Positions 19,201-28,727 of a stretch of 39,035 nt of DNA are shown here, in pieces. Made by a program: the position numbers and the translations under genes. This stretch comes from Pseudomonadota bacterium. GTDB taxonomy: Bacteria > Pseudomonadota > Gammaproteobacteria > Burkholderiales > Burkholderiaceae_C. The DNA is taken from assembly GCA_021808405.1 (NCBI GenBank), contig JAKBBQ010000004.1, positions 1-39,035 on the forward strand. The letters run 5' to 3'. Numbering within the stretch: the first letter of the stretch is position 1; every line of letters begins with the position of its first letter. Under the pieces are notes generated by a model, which searched no databases, was not told the DNA's origin, and saw only the letters and a program-made list of their open reading frames with translations.

Positions 19201-20625
19201 ATGGCTAAAGAATCGATGGAACCGCTGAATATCCCGGGTCGCATGGAAAGGCTGCCCCTCAGCGGATTCACATGGCTGGTTATCTGGCTCGCCGGGGCGG
19301 CCTGGTTCATCGAGTCGCTCGATATCGGTGCCATCGGTGTCGTGCTCGAGAGCGTGCGCCGGGTGATGCAACTGAGTCCGGGGCAGGTGGGCATGCTGGC
19401 GGTGTCGTCGACCTTCGGCATCGTGCTCGGATTGATCCCGGCCGGCTATCTGGCCGACCGCTACGGCCGCAAGCGCGTGCTGGTGTGGGGGGTGATCGAG
19501 TACAGCGCGCTGACCGTGCTCGCGGCATTCAGCCCGAATTACTCGGTGCTGCTGGTGATCCGCTTCCTGTCGGGGCTGGGCATGGGGGCGGTTTTCCCGC
19601 TGCCCTACGCGATCGTGTGCGAATTCGTTCCGAAAACCACGCGCACCCGCTTCAACGGCCTGCTCGACGGTTGCCTGTCGGTGGGCTACTTCCTGGCGCC
19701 GCTGCTCGGCGCGCTGATCCTCCCACGCTTCGCTCCCACCGAGTCGTGGCGGGTGTTCCTGATGGTCAGCGGGTTGCCGCTGGTCTACGCCGCGATCGCC
19801 CACAAGTGGATGCCCGAGTCGCCGCGCTGGATGGAGGTGCGCCTGGGCCGCGAGCGCGCCGACGCCGCGATGCGCGCGATCGAGGAACGGGTCGAGCGCG
19901 AGATGGGCAGGGCGCTGCCGGCGCCGCGGATGATCCCGCTGCTGGTGCCGCAGGGCAAGCCGCGGCCGACGGTCGCCGAGGTCTGGAGCGGCGCCCAGCT
20001 GGGCAAGACCGTCGTCGGCAGCGCGGCGATGATCTCCGCGCTGCTGATGTTCTACGTGGTGATGATCTACATGCCCAGCCTGCTGGTGAAGGATGGTTAC
20101 AGCATCGCCCATTCGCTGCTCTACACGGCCATCATCACGGGCTCGGCGATTCCCGGAAAGCTGTTGAACGGCTGGCTTTCGGATACCTGGGGACGCAAGC
20201 CGGTCTATATCCTGTTCATGGTGCTGGCATCGATCGGCGCGCTGTTTTTCGGCGAGGTTCATTCGCTGCCGCTGGTCATTACCTACGGTTGCCTGATGAG
20301 TTTCTTCGGAACCGGCACGTTCCCGGGCTTGAAGATGTATTATGCCGAGCAATATCCGACGCGCCTGCGCGCCACCGGATCGTCCACCGTGGAAGCGGTG
20401 AGCCGGCTGCTCGGCGGTGTCGTCGGCCCGTATTTCGTGCCGGTCCTGCTGGCGACGGTCGGTATTGCGGGGATTTTCCGGGTCATCGGTATCGTCGGCA
20501 TCGCAGGTCCGCTCGTGGTGCTGTTCTGGGGCAAGGAAACCGCCAAGCGCACGCTGGAGGAAGTGTCCGGCGACACGGCCGCGATGGCGGGCGACGCGGT
20601 GCCCGGCGCGCTGGTGGGCAAATGA
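19201..20625 (+). CDS. MFS transporter (carboxylate/sugar-acid type)
   Basis: A 474-residue, 12-helix major facilitator protein, first gene of a seven-gene operon. The start ATG at 19201 has GAAGGAGA upstream. The cytoplasmic loop 2-3 signature GYLADRYGRKRV (82-93) and its pseudo-repeat GWLSDTWGRKPVY in the second half mark the family. The TM1 stretch WFIESLDIGAIGVVL holds acidic residues (E38, D41), as in proton-coupled aromatic-acid/sugar symporters. ESWRVFLMVSG and MPESPRWMEVRLGRE also fit the SP/AAHS side of the superfamily. I infer uptake of the substrate for the enzymes encoded downstream; the substrate cannot be read from sequence. Confidence 0.9.
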   Translation: MAKESMEPLNIPGRMERLPLSGFTWLVIWLAGAAWFIESLDIGAIGVVLESVRRVMQLSPGQVGMLAVSSTFGIVLGLIPAGYLADRYGRKRVLVWGVIEYSALTVLAAFSPNYSVLLVIRFLSGLGMGAVFPLPYAIVCEFVPKTTRTRFNGLLDGCLSVGYFLAPLLGALILPRFAPTESWRVFLMVSGLPLVYAAIAHKWMPESPRWMEVRLGRERADAAMRAIEERVEREMGRALPAPRMIPLLVPQGKPRPTVAEVWSGAQLGKTVVGSAAMISALLMFYVVMIYMPSLLVKDGYSIAHSLLYTAIITGSAIPGKLLNGWLSDTWGRKPVYILFMVLASIGALFFGEVHSLPLVITYGCLMSFFGTGTFPGLKMYYAEQYPTRLRATGSSTVEAVSRLLGGVVGPYFVPVLLATVGIAGIFRVIGIVGIAGPLVVLFWGKETAKRTLEEVSGDTAAMAGDAVPGALVGK

Positions 20626-20686: not shown

Positions 20687-21790
20687 ATGGTCGATGCGAG
20701 CGTGACGGTGGAGTCCGTGCAGGTGCGGCGCCTGCAGGTGCCGCTCAAGTCGCCCTACAAGCTGTCGCTGGGCGCGGTGACACGGTTCGACACCATCCTG
20801 GTGCGCATCGACGCGCCGGCCGGCAGCGGCTGGGGCGACGCGACCATCCTGACCGGCTATACCGACGAGACCGTCGAGGGCGCCTGGGCGCTGGCGCGCG
20901 ACCTGGCCGCGCGACTGCCGGGGATGGAGGCCGCGCGGGCGCGGCACGCGCTGGCCGGGTATTACGCCAGCGCGCCCTTCACCGCGACGGCCTTCGCGAC
21001 GGCGCTGGACATGCTGGAGGGCGATCCGGCGCTGCAGGTGGCCGAGGCGACCGGGGTGCCGCTGCTGGCGACCCTGGGCGCCGACGGCGGCCCGCAACTG
21101 GCCGCCGAGATCGAGCGCCACCTGGCACAGGGTTACCGCACGCTGAAGATGAAGGTCGGCTTCGACGTCGCGCAGGACCTGGCCCGCGTGGCCGAGGTGC
21201 AGCGCTGCGTGGGCGGGCGGGCGCAGATCCGCATCGACGCCAACCAGGGCTTCAGCCAGGCCGAGGCCTGTCGTTTCGTCGGCGCGGTCGACCCGCGGGA
21301 CATCGAGCTCATCGAGCAGCCTTGCGCGGCCGAGGACTGGCGCGCCGCCGAGGCGGTGGCCCGGGTCTGCAACGCTCCGCTGATGCTCGACGAATCGATC
21401 TACGACGAGTCGGACATCGAGCGGGCGGCCGCGATCGGCGCGCGCTATGTCAAGCTCAAGCTGATGAAACTCGGCGATGTGCGGCGCCTCGGGAACGCGC
21501 TGCAGCGCGTGCGATCCCTCGGCATGGAGCCGGTGCTGGGCAACGGGGTCGCGACCGAGATCGGCTGCTGGATGGAGGCCTGCGTGGCGCGTCATCACAT
21601 CCGCAATGCCGGCGAGATGAACGGATTCTTGAAACAATCGGTGCCGCTGGTGCAAAGGCCCTTGCGGGTCGAGGGGGGCATGCTCTGGCTCGAGCCCGAG
21701 CCGCCCAGCCTCGACGAGGCGGCGCTGGCGCGGGTGAGCGTCGAGCAGGCGCATTTTGGCAAGGTACCCAGTTCCCAGGGAGTGGTCTGA
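20687..21790 (+). CDS. Enolase-superfamily enzyme, muconate-lactonizing (MLE) type
   Basis: A 367-residue enzyme with an N-terminal capping domain (about 1-125) and a C-terminal barrel. The start is the ATG at 20687, preceded by AGGGAGG. Metal ligands are D184 (RIDANQG), E210 (LIEQP) and D235 (LDES). The acid/base lysines are in LKMKVG (K154, K156) and VKLKLMKLG (K258). This KxK plus opposite-lysine arrangement marks the muconate cycloisomerase/dipeptide epimerase subgroup. These enzymes abstract the proton next to a carboxylate, giving cycloisomerisation, racemisation or elimination. True 3-methylaspartate ammonia-lyase, the usual partner of glutamate mutase, belongs to a different enolase-superfamily subgroup, so this is not its clear orthologue. 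It lies directly upstream of the mutase small subunit (1 bp gap). The substrate is unknown. Confidence 0.85.
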
Positions 21791-21791
21791 C

Positions 21792-22253
21792 ATGCATTCG
21801 CAACCCACCGCGCGCCACGGCAGGACCCTGCTGACCGGCGTGATCGGCTCGGATACCCATATCGTGGGCAATCGCATCCTGTCGCTGGCGCTGGAGAGCG
21901 CCGGCTATCGGGTGGTTTCGCTGGGCGCGCTGACCCCGGCGCGCGAATTCATCGAAGGCGCGATCGAGACCGCGGCCGACGCCATCCTGGTGTCCTCGCT
22001 GTACGGCCAGGGCGAACTCGACTGCCGGGGCTTCCGCGACCTGTGCATCGAGGCCGGCATCGGCGACATCCTGCTGTACGTCGGCGGCAACCTGGTGGTG
22101 GGCAAGCAGGCGTGGCCCGATGTCGAGCAGCGCTTCCTGGCGATGGGCTTCGACCGCGCCTTCCCGCCGGGCACCCGGCCCGACGACGTGGTCTCGGCCC
22201 TCGATCGGGATTTCGCGGCGCGTGCCGCCGGGGCGAGGTTGGCGGCATCATGA
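21792..22253 (+). CDS. glmS: B12-binding small subunit of a glutamate-mutase-type enzyme
   Basis: A 153-residue cobalamin-binding subunit, closely resembling the sigma (S/MutS) subunit of glutamate mutase. The start is the ATG at 21792. The base-off, His-on signature DxHxxG is intact as D21-T-H23-I-V-G26 in [12 protein letters not shown], so H23 should ligate the cobalt. [16 protein letters not shown] and [18 protein letters not shown] are strongly conserved family blocks. The subunit binds adenosylcobalamin and joins the large epsilon-type subunit to make the active enzyme. The symbol reflects subunit family only, because the substrate appears to differ from glutamate (see the large subunit). 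Its stop overlaps the reactivase start (ATGA). Confidence 0.9.
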
Positions 22254-23683
22254 GTGAGCGCGACGACGTCGCGCTGCTGATCGATTTCGGCAGCACCTTC
22301 ACCAAGCTGCGGGCGGTCGACCTGCGCGGCGGCAGCATCCTCGGCAGCGGCCAGGGTCCGTCGACTGTGACCAGCGATGTCACGGTCGGGCTGAACGTCG
22401 CGCTCGCCGACCTCGACAGGCGCCTGGGCGGGCTGCCGCGCTTTCGGCACAGGCTGGCCTCGAGCAGCGCGGCCGGCGGCCTGCGCATGGTGACCGTGGG
22501 ACTGGTCAAGGACCTGACGGCCGAGGCGGCGCGACGCGCTGCGCTGGGAGCCGGAGCCAAGCTGGTCGGCACCTTCGCCTACCGGCTCAACGCCGCGGAC
22601 ATCCGCCAGGTGCTGCAGCTGCGCCCCGACATCCTGCTGCTGTGCGGCGGCACCGACGGCGGCAACGAGGACGTGATCCTGCACAACGCCGGCTTGCTCA
22701 GCGCCAGCGAACTGGCCTGCCCGGTGGTGCTGGCCGGCAACCGGGCGGTGGCCGACGTGATCGCCGAGCAGTTCGGCAGCCGCGGCAAGGAGGTGCGCAT
22801 CGCCGGCAACGTGATGCCCGAGCTCAACGTGCTGGACATCGACCCGGCGCGGGCCGTGATCCGCCAGGTGTTCATGGAGCGCATCGTCCACGCCAAGGGA
22901 ATCGACAGGGCCGCGGAGATGTTCGACGCGGTGCTCATGCCCACGCCTGCCGCCGTGCTCGAGGGCGCTCGCCTGCTGGCCGCCGGCACCCGGGGACAGC
23001 CGGGGCTGGGCGACCTCGTGGTGGTCGATGTCGGCGGGGCGACCACCGACGTGCACTCCATCTGCGCCGGCGAGCCGACGCGGCCCGACGCGCTGATGCA
23101 CGGATTGCCGGAACCTTTCGCCAAGCGCACCGTCGAAGGCGATCTGGGCATGCGCCACAACGCGACGGCCATCGTCGAGGCGGCCGGCCTGGGGCCCGTC
23201 GCCGCTGCCGCCGGGCTGTCCGAATCGCGGGCGGCGCAGTTGCTGGCCCTGCTCGCGGCCGATGTCGAGCGCGTGCCGACGAACGACGAGGAGGCGCGCT
23301 TCGACCAGGCGCTGGCCAGCGCGGCGATCCGCATCGCGATGCGCCGCCACGCCGGCACCGTGGAGACGGTCTACACCGCCACCGGCCCGAAGGCGCTGCA
23401 GCGAGGCAAGGACCTGGGCGCGGTGGCCAGCGTGATCGGCACCGGCGGGCCGATCATCCATGCCGCCGACCCGCTGCCCATGCTGGAGGCGGTGTTGTGG
23501 GATTCCGGCGAGCCGCAGTCGCTGCGGCCGCGGCAGCCGCGGATGTTCCTCGACCGCGGCTATGTGTTGTACGCGGTCGGCCTGCTGGCCGAGCGCGACC
23601 CGGAGGCGGCGATGGCGCTGGCCAGTTCCCAATTGCAATCGATCGATCGGAGTGTGCGTGATGGACACAGCAGTGCAGCCTAG
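22250..23683 (+). CDS. glmL: GlmL/MutL-family mutase reactivating protein (ASKHA ATPase)
   Basis: A 477-residue protein of the GlmL/MutL family, an ASKHA-fold ATPase encoded with glutamate-mutase subunits and thought to reactivate enzyme inactivated by loss of the adenosyl group. The start is the ATG at 22250, overlapping the small-subunit stop. Phosphate-binding motifs are [10 protein letters not shown] (11-20) and [13 protein letters not shown] (258-270). Between them is [18 protein letters not shown], and later [12 protein letters not shown] and GPIIH. Length is typical. It lies between the small and large subunit genes, the usual S-L-E order. It overlaps the large-subunit gene by 23 bp. 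Confidence 0.9.
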
Positions 23684-25157
23684 GGCGGCGCACGAGGCCA
23701 GTGCGAGCCCGATTCCGTGGGATGAATTCGCGGCCATGCGCCGCGACAACCTGGCGCGCTGGCCGACCGGCGCGGCGGTCGACATCGACGAGGCCGTGGC
23801 CTACCACAAGGCGATGCCGCAGGCCAAGAGCCTGGCGCGGGCGATGCGCCTGGCGGCCGAACAGCGCGCCTGCCTGACCCAGCCGCGGGGCGGTTTCGGC
23901 ACGGTGGCGATGCAGATGGAACTGATGCGGGTGCTCGAGTCCGAGGGCCTGGCCGATATCGTTCCCACGACCACCGACAGCTATACCCGCAACGAGCAGT
24001 TCGACGCGGCGCAGCACGGCATGAACGAGTCGGAGGCGGCGGGGCGCTCGATGCTCAACGGTTTTCCGATCGTCACCGCCGGGGTCGCGACCTGCCGCAA
24101 GCTGGTGGAGTCGAGCACGCGGCCGAACATCGTGCTGTCGGGAACCGCGATGCCCCGGCTCACCTCGGAGATCGCTCTGGCCGCCGGCTACACGGGCTAC
24201 CTCGGATCGGGGATCGCCTACACGACTTCCTACACCAAGACCCTGTCGATCGCGGAGGGCATCCGCAACTACCAGTACCTCGACAGGCTGACCGCGCTGT
24301 ACGCCGAAAAGGGCGTGGAACTGCATCGGCGCCAGCCGGGGTTCCTGACCGGCACCAACATCCCGCCGTCGATCGCGATCGTCACCTGCATCCTCGACGC
24401 GCTGCTGGCGGCCGCGCAGGGGGTTCGCAACTACGGGCTCGAACTCGGACAATGCCTGCACCTGGTGCAGGACGCCGCGGCGATCGCCGCCTGCGGCGAA
24501 CTCTGCCAGGAATACCTGCGCAAGTTCGGCCATACCGACGTCTTCACCCCTGTGACCTCGCTGCACTGGATGGGCGCGTGGCCGCATGACGAGGCGCAGT
24601 GCGCTGCGCTGATCTCCTACGGCGGCACGCTGGCCGCGGTCGGCGGCGCGGTCAGCGTGACCACCAAGTCGACCCACGAGGCGATCGGCATCCCGACGCC
24701 GAGCGCCAACGCGGAGGGCCTGCGCATGACCCGGTTGGCGATCTACATGGCGCGCGGCCTGCGGCTGGACGGCCTGCCGGAGTACGAGCGCGAGAAGGCG
24801 CTGATCGCCAGCGAGGTGCGGCCCATCGTCGACAAGGTGCTGGAGATCGGCGACGGCGATCCGGCGCTGGGTGCCGTGCGCGCCTTCGAAATCGGCGTGC
24901 TCGACATCCCCTGGTCGCCCAACCGCCATGTGAAGAGCCGCATCATGCCGGCGCGCGACGCCGACGGCTACATCCGCATCCTCGACGCCGGCAAGGTGCC
25001 GATCCCCGCGGAGGTGATGGAAGTGCATCACGCGGCGCTGCGCCGCAGGGCGCAGCGCGAGGCAGTCGCCTTCGACCATTCGCTGGCGGTTTCCAGCGTC
25101 TACGAATTCAGCGAACCGCTGGCGCAACTGCTGCCCTGGCAGCCGCGCATGGCCTGA
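23661..25157 (+). CDS. glmE: Large subunit of a glutamate-mutase-type B12 enzyme with altered substrate site
   Basis: A 498-residue epsilon-type subunit, a TIM barrel where adenosylcobalamin radical rearrangement occurs. The start is the ATG at 23661. Compared with my memory of the Clostridium cochlearium enzyme, residues align at a constant +10 offset: R66 to R76 (QPRGG), R100 to R110 (SYTRN), Y177 to Y187 and Y181 to Y191 (GIAYTTSYTK), K326 to K336 and E330 to E340 (TKSTHEAIGIP). Two positions differ: R149 to L159 (NIVLSGT) and E171 to L181 (GYLGSG). In glutamate mutase R149 and E171 help hold the substrate's carboxylate and amino groups. The cofactor-side residues (K336, E340) are kept. 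I infer an active mutase for a substrate lacking the alpha-amino acid end, or with a different group there. The gene symbol is by family only. Confidence 0.85.
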   Translation: MDTAVQPRAAHEASASPIPWDEFAAMRRDNLARWPTGAAVDIDEAVAYHKAMPQAKSLARAMRLAAEQRACLTQPRGGFGTVAMQMELMRVLESEGLADIVPTTTDSYTRNEQFDAAQHGMNESEAAGRSMLNGFPIVTAGVATCRKLVESSTRPNIVLSGTAMPRLTSEIALAAGYTGYLGSGIAYTTSYTKTLSIAEGIRNYQYLDRLTALYAEKGVELHRRQPGFLTGTNIPPSIAIVTCILDALLAAAQGVRNYGLELGQCLHLVQDAAAIAACGELCQEYLRKFGHTDVFTPVTSLHWMGAWPHDEAQCAALISYGGTLAAVGGAVSVTTKSTHEAIGIPTPSANAEGLRMTRLAIYMARGLRLDGLPEYEREKALIASEVRPIVDKVLEIGDGDPALGAVRAFEIGVLDIPWSPNRHVKSRIMPARDADGYIRILDAGKVPIPAEVMEVHHAALRRRAQREAVAFDHSLAVSSVYEFSEPLAQLLPWQPRMA

Positions 25158-25204: not shown

Positions 25205-26176
25205 ATGCATCTGGGTGTACGACTTGCGGTGCAGGGAGAGATGGGGGCCACCGGCCAGGGCTGGGACCTGGCCAGGCAGATGACCCTGGAAGCCGAGGAA
25301 CTGGGTTTCGACAGCGTGTGGCTGCCCGACCATGTGATGAACGCCCACATGGCGGTCGACGTGCCGATGCTCGAGTGCTGGACGGTGCTGTCGGCTCTGG
25401 CCGCGCTGACCACGCGGGTGCAGTTCGCCGGCCATACCTTCAACAACTCGCTGCGCCATCCCGCGCTGATGGCCAAGATGGCCGCGACCTTCGACGTCAT
25501 GTTCGGCGGGCGGCTGATCTACTCGCTGGGTTCGGCGTGGTTCCGGCGGGAGAGCGAAGGCTACGGCCTGCCCTGGGACGGCCACGACGACCGGGTCGCG
25601 CGCCTGCGCGAGGCCCTGCTGATCGCCAAGGCGATGTGGACGGAGGACTTCGTCGACTTCGACGGCCGCTTCTATCGCCTGAAGCAGGCGCATGTGTCGC
25701 CCAAGCCGCTGCAAAAGCCCCATATCCCCATCTGGGTGCCGGGGGATTCGGAGGCCACGCGCCAGCTGGCCGCCGAGCTGGGCGACGCCTGGCTGTTCTA
25801 CTCCAAGCCGCCGCGGGTCATCGCCGAATACGCTGCCGACATGGCGCGCCGGCGTGGCGGGCGGCCGCTGGCCATGGCGGCGTCGACCGTGTTCCTCGGG
25901 GGACTTGCGCAGCAGCAGGTCGGCGAGTGGAGCGTCAAGTACGCCAAGGAGCGCGAACACCGCTTCGCCACGCCGCCGACCCCGCAGGACGTGCTGGAGG
26001 AAAACCTCTGGGGCAGCGCCGACGCCTGTGTCGACAGGATCCGGCAATGGCAGGCGGCGGGGGTGTCGTCGCTGATCATCCAGCCGATCCCGCCGCTGCA
26101 GGGCATGCGCTACTTCGCCAGCGAGATCATGCCGCGGCTGCGGCCCGAACCCGCCGCGCAGGCGGCGAGCGGCTGA
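25205..26176 (+). CDS. LLM-class flavin-dependent oxidoreductase
   Basis: A 323-residue luciferase-like enzyme with a TIM-barrel fold. The start is the ATG at 25205, with AGGAG upstream; a start at the ATG near 25166 would lack this site. Recognisable stretches are EELGFDSVWLPDHVMN, LAALTTRVQFAGHTFNN, LRHPALMAKMAATFDVMFGGRLIYSLG, the RVARLREALLIAKAMW helix, and KPHIPIWVPGDSEATRQLAAELGDAW. Family members use FMN (or F420 in actinobacteria) for monooxygenation or reduction; the flavin and substrate cannot be decided here. It follows the mutase large subunit by 47 bp in the same direction, so it is probably part of the pathway. Confidence 0.85.
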   Translation: MHLGVRLAVQGEMGATGQGWDLARQMTLEAEELGFDSVWLPDHVMNAHMAVDVPMLECWTVLSALAALTTRVQFAGHTFNNSLRHPALMAKMAATFDVMFGGRLIYSLGSAWFRRESEGYGLPWDGHDDRVARLREALLIAKAMWTEDFVDFDGRFYRLKQAHVSPKPLQKPHIPIWVPGDSEATRQLAAELGDAWLFYSKPPRVIAEYAADMARRRGGRPLAMAASTVFLGGLAQQQVGEWSVKYAKEREHRFATPPTPQDVLEENLWGSADACVDRIRQWQAAGVSSLIIQPIPPLQGMRYFASEIMPRLRPEPAAQAASG

Positions 26177-26192
26177 GCGGAGCCGCGACATC

Positions 26193-27188
26193 GTGCAGGC
26201 CATCCAGATCGAAGGCTTCGGCGAAGCCGACCAACTCCGGCTCGTCCGCGTCGAGCCGCCGCGTCCGGGGCCCGGCGAGGCGCTGGTCAGGTTGGCGTGT
26301 GCCGGGGTCAATTTCATCGATGTGTACATGCGCAAGGGCATGTACGCGAGCTCCCACACCTACCAGACCCCGCTGCCGATGACGGTCGGCATGGAAGGCG
26401 CGGGCACGGTGGTCGAGCTGGGCGAGGGCGTGCACGATCTCGCCGTCGGCACCCGCGTGGCGTATTGCCTGTCGCGCGGCAGCTATGCCGAGTACGCGGT
26501 GGTTCCGGCGTGGCGGCTGGTTCCCGTGCCCCGGCAGGTGCCGCCCGCGGTGGCCGCGGCGCTGATGCTGCAGGGCTGCACCGCCCACTACCTCGCCACT
26601 TCGGCCTTCGGCTTGTCGCCCGGGCATGCCTGCCTGGTGCATGCGGCGGCCGGCGGAGTCGGGCAGCTGCTGGTGCAACTGGCCAAGCTGCACGGAGCCC
26701 GGGTGATCGCCACCGCGGGCAGCGCCGACAAGGCGGACATCGCCATGCGTTGCGGGGCCGACAGCTGCATTGCGTACCGCGAGGTCGATTTCCGCGACCA
26801 GCTGCTGGAGCTGACCGAGGGCAGGGGGGTCGACGTGGTCTACGACTCGGTGGGGCGCGACACCATCCAGCGCAGCATCCGCTGCCTCAAGCCGAGGGGC
26901 CTGTGCATACTCTACGGCGCCAGTTCGGGCGCGGTGCCGGCGGTGACCCCGCTGGAACTCGCCGAGGCCGGCTCGGTGTTCTTCACCCGGCCGCACCTGG
27001 CCGACTACATCGCCACCCGCGACGAACTGCGGCAGCGCTGCGAACAGCTGTTCGCGCACTGGTCGTCGGGCCGGCTGCGGGTGAGCATCGACCGCGAACT
27101 GCCGTTGGCCGAGGCAGCGACGGCCCATCGGCTGCTCGAGGGGCGCGCCAGCCGGGGCAAGCTGCTGCTGCGCATCGAGCCGGACTGA
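26193..27188 (+). CDS. Zinc-independent quinone oxidoreductase (MDR family)
   Basis: A 331-residue NADPH-dependent medium-chain reductase of the QOR type. The likely start is the GTG at 26193 (MQAIQIEGFGEAD). The catalytic half has ACAGVNFIDVYMRKG and LPMTVGMEGAGTVVE, and the Rossmann part has VHAAAGGVGQLLVQLAK. The catalytic and structural zinc cysteines of alcohol dehydrogenases are absent, matching quinone or enone reductases. It is the last gene of the 19201-27188 operon. A reducing step on an enone, quinone or crotonyl-type intermediate is a plausible role. The end of the operon is inferred from the 82-bp gap and a change of function afterwards. Confidence 0.88.
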   Translation: MQAIQIEGFGEADQLRLVRVEPPRPGPGEALVRLACAGVNFIDVYMRKGMYASSHTYQTPLPMTVGMEGAGTVVELGEGVHDLAVGTRVAYCLSRGSYAEYAVVPAWRLVPVPRQVPPAVAAALMLQGCTAHYLATSAFGLSPGHACLVHAAAGGVGQLLVQLAKLHGARVIATAGSADKADIAMRCGADSCIAYREVDFRDQLLELTEGRGVDVVYDSVGRDTIQRSIRCLKPRGLCILYGASSGAVPAVTPLELAEAGSVFFTRPHLADYIATRDELRQRCEQLFAHWSSGRLRVSIDRELPLAEAATAHRLLEGRASRGKLLLRIEPD

Positions 27189-27773: not shown

Positions 27774-28727
27774 GTGAGAAGGCTGCGGTTCATCGATTCG
27801 CACACCGGTGGCGAGCCGACGCGGGTCTTGCTGGGCGGCGTCGAGCGTCCCGCGCAGGGCGTGGAGCGCGGCGCTGCCGAGCTGGGCCGTCGATCCGGCT
27901 GGCTGCTCGAGGCGGCCATCGTCGAGCCGCGTGGCTCGGATATCCTGGTCGGCGCGGTCTACTGGCCGCCGGCGCCGGGGCAGCCCGCGGGAGAAGTGGT
28001 GTTTTTCAACAACGTCGGGCTGCTCGGCATGTGCGGCCACGGCACCATCGGCCTCGTGGCCTCGCTGGCCTTCCTCGGCGAACTCGGTACCGGCGAGTTG
28101 TCGTTGCGCACCCCGGTCGGCCCGGTACGCGCGCAATGGCTGGGCGACGGCCGGGTCGGCATCGACAATGTCGTCGCCTATCGGGAACACAAGGACGTCG
28201 CGCTGGAGGTTCCGGGGTATGGCCGTCTGCTCGGCGACGTGGCTTGGGGCGGCAACTGGTTCTACCTCGTCGAGCAGCCGCCACTGGCGCTGGAACTGGC
28301 CAACCGCGAGGCGCTGACCGAACTGGCCTGGGCGATCCGCGGGCAACTGCGGGCCCGGGGCATCCGCGGGCGCGATGGCGCCGAGATCGACCACATCGAA
28401 CTGTGCTCGGCAGCCGGTTCGTCGTCGGCCGTGGATTCGCGCAATTTCGTGCTGTGCCCCGGAAAGGCCTACGACCGCTCGCCCTGCGGCACCGGCACCA
28501 GCGCCAAGCTGGCCTGCCTGGCTGCCGACGGCAAGCTGCAGCCCGGCAGCATCTGGCGCCAGCAGGGAATCACCGGCAGTGTGTTCGAAGCCAGCTACGA
28601 GCCCGCGGGCCACGATCCGCGCGGCAGGCTGTGCATACGGCCCTCGCTCGTCGGACAGGCGCAGGTCACCGCGGTCGGCGAACTGCTGATCGATGACTCC
28701 GAGCGGGCTGCGCACAGCTGGGGGTGA
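27774..28727 (+). CDS. Proline racemase family enzyme, 4-hydroxyproline 2-epimerase type
   Basis: A 317-residue cofactor-independent racemase. The likely start is the GTG at 27774, two bases after the previous stop; the N-terminus FIDSHTGGEPTRV is standard. The two catalytic cysteines are present: C87 in GMCGHGTIG and C238 in YDRSPCGTGTSAKLA, with H89 and D234 alongside. A Cys/Cys pair supports racemase/epimerase activity rather than the Thr/Cys dehydratase subgroup. Closely related enzymes epimerise trans-4-hydroxy-L-proline to cis-4-hydroxy-D-proline, the first step of hydroxyproline breakdown. The other catabolic genes of that pathway are not in this window. Proline racemase is the alternative. 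Confidence 0.85.
   Translation: MRRLRFIDSHTGGEPTRVLLGGVERPAQGVERGAAELGRRSGWLLEAAIVEPRGSDILVGAVYWPPAPGQPAGEVVFFNNVGLLGMCGHGTIGLVASLAFLGELGTGELSLRTPVGPVRAQWLGDGRVGIDNVVAYREHKDVALEVPGYGRLLGDVAWGGNWFYLVEQPPLALELANREALTELAWAIRGQLRARGIRGRDGAEIDHIELCSAAGSSSAVDSRNFVLCPGKAYDRSPCGTGTSAKLACLAADGKLQPGSIWRQQGITGSVFEASYEPAGHDPRGRLCIRPSLVGQAQVTAVGELLIDDSERAAHSWG

Follow-up and report, generated by a model that had tools for sequence, protein, structure and literature searches.

What does a glutamate-mutase-type B12 enzyme act on once the residues that would hold glutamate have been replaced? The question is raised by a DNA stretch of 39,035 nucleotides (the whole of which is called the window here: positions 1 to 39,035 of contig JAKBBQ010000004.1, assembly GCA_021808405.1, from a member of the Burkholderiaceae_C), where the S, L and E genes of such an enzyme all lie on the + strand with open reading frames. 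The E subunit (23661..25157, +) belongs to the GlmE/MutE family by profile, scoring over the curated cut-offs of both PF06368 (450.5 vs 26.6 bits) and TIGR01503 (443.3 vs 390.1 bits). Encoded alongside it are an S-type cobalamin-binding subunit, the cobalamin carrier expected of an adenosylcobalamin (AdoCbl)-dependent mutase (21792..22253, +; NF002612 at 189.1 bits against a cut-off of 110, and a match to 1i9c_A with an E-value of 2.6e-50), and an accessory protein L of the GlmL type (22250..23683, +; NF040745 at 585.8 bits against 475). The S sequence contains the DxHxxG motif. We propose, with moderate confidence, that the enzyme is an AdoCbl-dependent carbon-skeleton mutase of sulfonate catabolism, whose substrate retains an acrylate-type half and whose migrating group has changed.

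The migrating-group pocket of the E subunit

The E subunit aligns without gaps with Clostridium cochlearium glutamate mutase (PDB 1cb7 chain B) over 460 residues (E-value 2.9e-116), residues 22-481 of the translation P0001 matching residues 11-470 of the crystallised chain. P0001 starts one codon upstream of the ATG, which gives an offset of +11; counted from the MDTAV start, the constant +10 offset claimed in an earlier note on this DNA holds. So does that note's central observation: L159 and L181 do lie opposite R149 and E171. Also replaced are H150 (S160), H291 (L301) and E214 (R224), while R66, R100, N123, Y177, Y181, K326 and E330 are kept (R76, R110, N133, Y187, Y191, K336 and E340 from the MDTAV start; all but N133 had already been listed as conserved). 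Misalignment as the source of the two leucines is rejected by the gapless alignment and by the structural comparison with the C. cochlearium enzyme that the note had called for. An AlphaFold2 model of E (mean pLDDT 91.6) superposes on 6h9e_B and 1cb7_B with a root-mean-square deviation of 1.1 A, TM scores of 0.93-0.96 and 40% identity; it has the fold of the epsilon subunit, and the Leu/Leu pair stands.

In glutamate mutase, the glycyl moiety is the migrating group and is held by R66, R149 and E171, while acrylate is deduced to bind R100 and Y177 (crystallographic work, as given in parts of PMC10947579). Since R149 and E171 act on the migrating glycyl group and R100 and Y177 on the acrylate half, an enzyme that has lost the first pair and retained the second would be expected to keep the acrylate half of its substrate and to move a different group. 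Judged from the alignment, the swaps fall in the migrating-group pocket and leave the acrylate side untouched.

The pocket has also gained a residue. All 87 rows of the clade described below have Arg at position 214, and none of 19 classical rows does; the classical rows (1cb7 apart) were picked by R149/H150/E171, so that these columns are set by construction while E214, G173 and P180 are not. Other full or near-full swaps between the same 87 and 19 rows are I95T, N102E, Q147I, G173S, S176A, P180S, F216P, P218F, G251E, Q292H and K322S. Position 171 is Leu throughout the 87 rows, and no acidic residue is found there. In the model, L159, L181, R224 and L301 each end a listed strand (156-159, 179-181, 222-224 and 298-301), and barrels of this kind carry their active sites at strand ends. 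We read this as an anion clamp that may have shifted from 149 to 214, together with the disappearance of the partner of the amino group; if so, the migrating half is probably not an amino acid and still anionic. The earlier note had described a loss of the polar clamp. The Leu/Leu part of that description is true, but simple loss is an incomplete account, as Arg occupies 214 in every row of the clade and R66 is kept, so that another strand probably still provides a hold on a second anionic group.

The Leu/Leu form among bacteria

Within the genus, one of 27 other genomes has the gene, and its E is 97% identical to that of the window. As this genome carries the operon too, a contaminant contig is an unlikely origin. 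Among 300 genomes of the order, drawn evenly and searched without peptide patterns, ten had a match: seven with the Leu/Leu form (the source genome included), two with the classical R/H/E set and one with a short fragment. The E proteins of the six further Leu/Leu genomes are 67-73% identical to the window's, and one of the seven holds an odd second copy as well. A scan of named genomes then gave 100 relatives, 80 of which were kept (61-97% identical). Leu is found at 149, 171 and 291 in all 80, although one of the two peptide patterns used, LHWMGAW, spans position 291 and biases that column, whereas 149 and 171 lie in neither; position 150 is Ser (43) or Thr (37). Neither the window nor any of these loci therefore has the R149 and E171 of glutamate mutase. 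R66 is covered in 78 and R100 in 79 of the 80 loci and is Arg every time, and R100/Y177 and K326/E330 are kept wherever covered. Most scan record titles name alpha-, beta- or gammaproteobacteria or just Proteobacteria, a few titles of metagenome-assembled genomes name Nitrospira, Nitrospinae, Acidobacteria or Bacillota, and the named isolates include Azospirillum oleiclasticum RWY-5-1-1 (L048) and Roseovarius sp. EGI FJ00037 (L114).

The phylogeny suggested in the earlier note bears this out. The 23 Leu/Leu rows of a 44-row tree (the window and 22 of the 86 relatives, trait columns retained) form a single clade with a support of 100/100; a long-branch warning concerned other rows. The E genes of the window and of its 97% relative differ with a dN/dS of ~0.07 (dN 0.014, dS 0.207), on which a dead gene is rejected. 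The Leu/Leu pair is thus the fixed form of a widespread bacterial branch and not a chance event. Purifying selection, the conserved clade, S and L proteins over their cut-offs and the published roles of R100 and Y177 are all consistent with the note's suggestion of a working mutase with a different substrate, in which R110 would still grip one carboxylate.

Two other divergent mutases were seen in the same searches. A second GlmE-like gene of a Leu/Leu-bearing genome (L029/L037, genome G867) keeps R149 but has Thr, Thr, Phe and Ser for H150, E171, Y177 and H291; near it are a tripartite-transporter binding protein and, by eye, an isopropylmalate-dehydrogenase-like gene, and it is possibly a third specificity. 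In genome G073 (L005/L038), a GlmE that adjoins S and L has diverged strongly: it has Gln at 66, Val at 149, Thr at 150, Ser at 171, Glu at 177, His at 181 and Phe at 291, its surrounding genes resemble, by eye, those of acyl-CoA dehydrogenases and CoA ligases, and it would be another retuned mutase.

Sulfonate genes beside the mutase and elsewhere in its genomes

The main clue to the substrate is a sulfonate context that the earlier note did not contain. We assembled 50 Leu/Leu genomes, eight from the genus and order searches and the remainder being the genomes of 42 of the 80 fetched loci. Xsc is found over its cut-off in 42 of the 50, against 28 of 293 order genomes without the form, and SauS in 42 of the 50, against 18 of 293. 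An SDH-like flavoprotein of at least 60% identity (some partial) occurs in 43 of the 50 and in 9 of 69 order genomes without the form. All three markers are present in 35 of the 50, the source genome among them, and at least one in 48. Within the 300-genome draw, Xsc is found in 6 of 7 Leu/Leu genomes (p 9e-6) and SauS in 7 of 7 (p 1.2e-8), by Fisher tests that ignore kinship; the draws of 300 behind the mutase, Xsc and SauS counts look identical by their handles. The mutase thus co-occurs with desulfonation genes, and this genome context suggests that its substrate belongs to organosulfonate breakdown. The gene that would be expected of a glutamate pathway behaves in the opposite manner: methylaspartate ammonia-lyase is over its cut-off in 2 of the 50 Leu/Leu genomes, with sub-cut-off fragments in a third, as compared with three of three classical control records, and a search of the window's own genome at an E-value of 1e-20 did not find it.

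Genes of the same kind adjoin the mutase itself. We called and clustered open reading frames of at least 110 amino acids in 87 loci, i.e. the 80 scan loci, six others and the window, a set that counts two contigs twice (L031/L054 and L036/L109) and includes many short contigs. Shorter frames were left uncalled and overlapping ones dropped, for which reason the counts of S, and of the window's own S and flavin oxidoreductase, come out too low. E is present in 87 loci, L in 76, an enolase-superfamily protein of the muconate-lactonising/epimerase type (MLE) in 54 and S in 51 (undercounted), followed by tripartite-transporter parts in 42 and a quinone-oxidoreductase-type reductase (QOR) in 27. Less frequent are SauS (20 loci), SDH-like subunits (18), TauE-type exporters (17), ADP-forming CoA-ligase subunits (13), Xsc (11) and fumarase subunits (seven). 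At least one of SauS, Xsc, TauE or a SuyB-like gene occurs in 42 of the 87. With cut-offs of 600 and 676.4, the SauS and Xsc representatives reach 789.7 and 1070.4 bits, respectively. S, L, E, SauS and both ligase subunits are consecutive in five loci, Xsc directly precedes MLE in two, and a TauE-type exporter is the same-strand neighbour of MLE in nine. Where the classical residue set is kept, the next gene is methylaspartate ammonia-lyase in six of eight annotated loci, the two others being from Roseibium and Methylobacter. Here and below, SuyA/SuyB, ComC, SlcD-like, CobS/CobT, TcuA, PrpF, TauD, SauT and GMC are names given by eye.

In the window, the three mutase genes form part of an apparent + strand operon that runs MFS transporter, MLE, S, L, E, luciferase-like oxidoreductase, QOR. 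The MFS transporter (19201..20625, +; Pfam MFS_1, 176.7 bits) is presumed to take up the substrate; it scores 220 bits with an aromatic acid/H+ symport model, under the cut-off of 418.55, and its cluster is seen in four of the 87 loci. MLE (20687..21790, +; Pfam MR_MLE_C, 102 bits), which has the L-Ala-D/L-Glu epimerase 1jpm as its best solved relative and conserves KxK, D, E, D and a later K, is presumably a racemase or lyase acting on the substrate or product of the mutase. Downstream of E lie a luciferase-like flavin or F420 oxidoreductase (25205..26176, +; Pfam Bac_luciferase), whose solved relatives are 3rao (best) and then the alkanesulfonate monooxygenases 8vw6 and 7jv3, and which is also found in L039, L048 and L053, and QOR (26193..27188, +), the second-best solved relative of which is 2-haloacrylate reductase 1wly. 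Slightly beyond the operon, at 27789-28727, is a proline-racemase-family gene near 4-hydroxyproline epimerase (318.9 bits, below the cut-off of 442).

In a same-genus genome (G023), Xsc, SauS, a CoA ligase and a tripartite transporter are grouped away from the mutase. CobS/CobT cobaltochelatase-like genes lie near Xsc in several genomes (L098, L100, L118, L120, L122, L135 and L137), and a TauD-type dioxygenase-like gene shares strand and gene run with the mutase in L034 (3695-4624). An MLE relative of ~40% identity on a plasmid of Sulfitobacter sp. LC.270.F.C4 (L164, 3809-18233) has no mutase gene within the stretch and sits amid a CoA ester lyase, biotin-carboxylase parts, an ADP-forming type CoA ligase, a tripartite transporter and a sulfate exporter. 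In Sulfitobacter THAF37 (L166), an enolase-type gene was considered as the same partner and left uncounted, its median identity to the 54 being 24%.

The SDH-like flavoprotein belongs to a module of its own. In all 16 SDH-like regions that were read, an iron-sulfur subunit accompanies it. Fumarase alpha is present in 14 of them, an Ldh-family gene in nine, a UxaA-family gene and a 2-hydroxyacid dehydrogenase in six each, and fumarase beta in five. The fumarase alpha representative passes its own cut-off, while the Ldh-family representative (ComC candidate) is nearest to L-sulfolactate dehydrogenase at 211 bits, below a cut-off of 500, and the SuyB candidate matches galactarate dehydratase alone, at 129 bits against a cut-off of 731; plasmid records label its relatives UxaA family hydrolase or D-galactarate dehydratase. 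The annotated order in Methylobacterium radiotolerans is SDH subunits, fumarase alpha and beta, flavoprotein, TPP (thiamine pyrophosphate) enzyme, TauE, two UxaA-family genes, dehydrogenase and Ldh-family gene. Such a module fits a route from 3-sulfopropanoate through sulfoacrylate to sulfolactate, one given in parts of PMC11489063 with reference to a thesis on Roseovarius nubinhibens. The conserved SDH-like and fumarase-like operon with sulfolactate-type genes in L148-L163 and L165 is in its own right a candidate 3-sulfopropanoate pathway. On a plasmid of Pseudomonas sp. MPC6 (L167, 7560-13899), a CoA-acylating methylmalonate-semialdehyde dehydrogenase comes after the SDH-like and fumarase genes, and both TauE and a sulfite oxidase are close by; hydration at the sulfonate carbon would there yield malonate semialdehyde and sulfite directly.

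The substrate and the known systems

From the observed sequence, clade, residue swaps and co-occurrence we infer a substrate, a direction and roles for the partner proteins as follows. S would bring the cobalamin, K336 and E340 would hold the adenosyl part and R110 and Y187 the acrylate half, facing a rebuilt glycyl pocket with Leu at 149, 171 and 291, Ser or Thr at 150 and Arg at 214 (R224). Our tentative guess at the reaction is the interconversion of 2-sulfopropanoate and 3-sulfopropanoate, the sulfonate counterparts of methylmalonate and succinate, with a sulfite radical as the migrating group; the interconversion would run via acrylate and this radical, which the rebuilt pocket would hold. 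MLE would then be a racemase, SDH-like and then fumarase-like enzymes would oxidise and hydrate 3-sulfopropanoate to sulfolactate, and sulfite would finally be freed by sulfolactate lyase or Xsc. Bacteria form 3-sulfopropionate from sulfoquinovose and DHPS (dihydroxypropanesulfonate), and its bacterial degradation is described as unpublished before, one thesis aside (both in the parts of PMC11489063 consulted). Sulfosuccinate, coenzyme M thioethers, homocysteate and 5-sulfolevulinate were weighed by chemistry alone and disfavoured.

Several points weigh against this proposal. No locus names the substrate, the specific guess leaves the sulfoacetate genes unexplained, and a search of open-licence PubMed Central literature gave no natural record of 2-sulfopropanoate. 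Two of the 50 Leu/Leu genomes have none of Xsc, SauS and the SDH-like flavoprotein, and 45 of the 87 loci, partly short contigs, have no SauS, Xsc, TauE or SuyB-like gene nearby. Related genomes are not independent. Finally, the presence of Xsc and SauS in 28 and 18 of the 293 genomes without the form shows that those pathways do not need the mutase.

A different division of labour, which overlaps with the sulfonate class proposed here and is a more specific form of it, would follow the logic of methylaspartase: the mutase moves the sulfonate-bearing carbon beta to the carboxylate, MLE expels sulfite and QOR reduces the enoate, the candidate reactions being 4-sulfobutanoate to 2-methyl-3-sulfopropanoate or 2-sulfoglutarate to 3-methyl-2-sulfosuccinate. 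An enolase-superfamily partner in 54 of 87 loci, comparable to the ammonia-lyase that follows E in the classical ones, the TauE-type exporter beside MLE in nine loci and the resemblance of QOR to 2-haloacrylate reductase all speak for it. We nevertheless regard it as unlikely, because a CH2-SO3 radical is, on general chemistry, poorly stabilised, MLE gives no sign of being a lyase, and the SDH-like and sulfoacetate genes would be left unexplained. Rather improbable, too, is a mutase for a sulfur-free acid such as a 2-methyleneglutarate-like dicarboxylate, with the sulfonate genes just happening to accompany it in generalists that degrade acids and have tripartite transporters in common. These transporters do carry many acids, and the 45 loci and two genomes lacking markers would be accounted for, but the steep differences in co-occurrence (42, 42 and 43 of 50 against 28 of 293, 18 of 293 and 9 of 69) and the operons shared with SauS and Xsc argue otherwise. 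That the enzyme is still a glutamate mutase, R224 replacing R149 and glutamate binding slightly differently, is very improbable: E does exceed the NCBIfam methylaspartate mutase cut-off and does regain an Arg at 214, but no acidic partner for the amino group is left at 171, H150, H291 and K322 are lost too, and methylaspartate ammonia-lyase is over its cut-off in just two of the 50 genomes and was not found in the window's own at an E-value of 1e-20. A decaying or purely structural paralogue without catalysis would explain why residues important in glutamate mutase are lost, and is dismissed in view of the dN/dS, the invariant adenosyl and acrylate residues and the adjoining S and L.

The sulfonate mutase that we favour would extend the small set of B12 mutases to a new class of substrates, and possibly to another migrating group, and would provide a step by which short sulfonated acids are degraded; were the 2-/3-sulfopropanoate guess true, it would be the first coenzyme-B12 mutase to migrate a sulfo group. 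Since the window's E is over the NCBI methylaspartate mutase cut-off, members of the clade are likely named for the glutamate pathway, which most Leu/Leu genomes seem to lack. Open-licence PubMed Central papers, a scope outside which most subscription journals fall, gave no link between glutamate or methylaspartate mutase and sulfonate breakdown. One search on this point returned a Halobacterium genome paper as its single hit; in the parts of PMC8473912 seen, glutamate mutase and sulfoacetaldehyde stand in separate contexts.

Compared with known systems, the enzyme is closest to glutamate mutase GlmS/GlmL/GlmE of the C. cochlearium type, with which it shares the fold, a gapless alignment, the S and L partners and the acrylate and adenosyl residues, and from which it differs by Leu/Leu for R149/E171, Arg for E214 and, in most genomes, sulfonate genes instead of methylaspartate ammonia-lyase. 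The genes of sulfoacetate degradation, SauS with SauT or SauCD, a tripartite transporter and Xsc (PMC12625764, in part), adjoin the mutase or occur elsewhere in the same genomes, whereas by word count the main text of that paper mentions no mutase. Radical chemistry on a sulfonate is shared with the glycyl radical enzyme IslA, the isethionate sulfite-lyase, a precedent for enzymatic radical C-S cleavage in which the sulfonate is held by two arginines and a glutamine; IslA, however, eliminates, and does so without B12, and migration is discussed as not being its reaction (parts of PMC8473560). With methylmalonyl-CoA mutase and its epimerase, the common feature would be that a racemase is paired with a B12 mutase, as proposed here, although no CoA ester is expected here and the Foldseek match is weak (TM ~0.5). 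If the proposal is true, then together with the racemase, the SDH-like dehydrogenase and the fumarase-like hydratase, the mutase would form a sulfonate mirror of the methylmalonate-succinate-fumarate-malate route.

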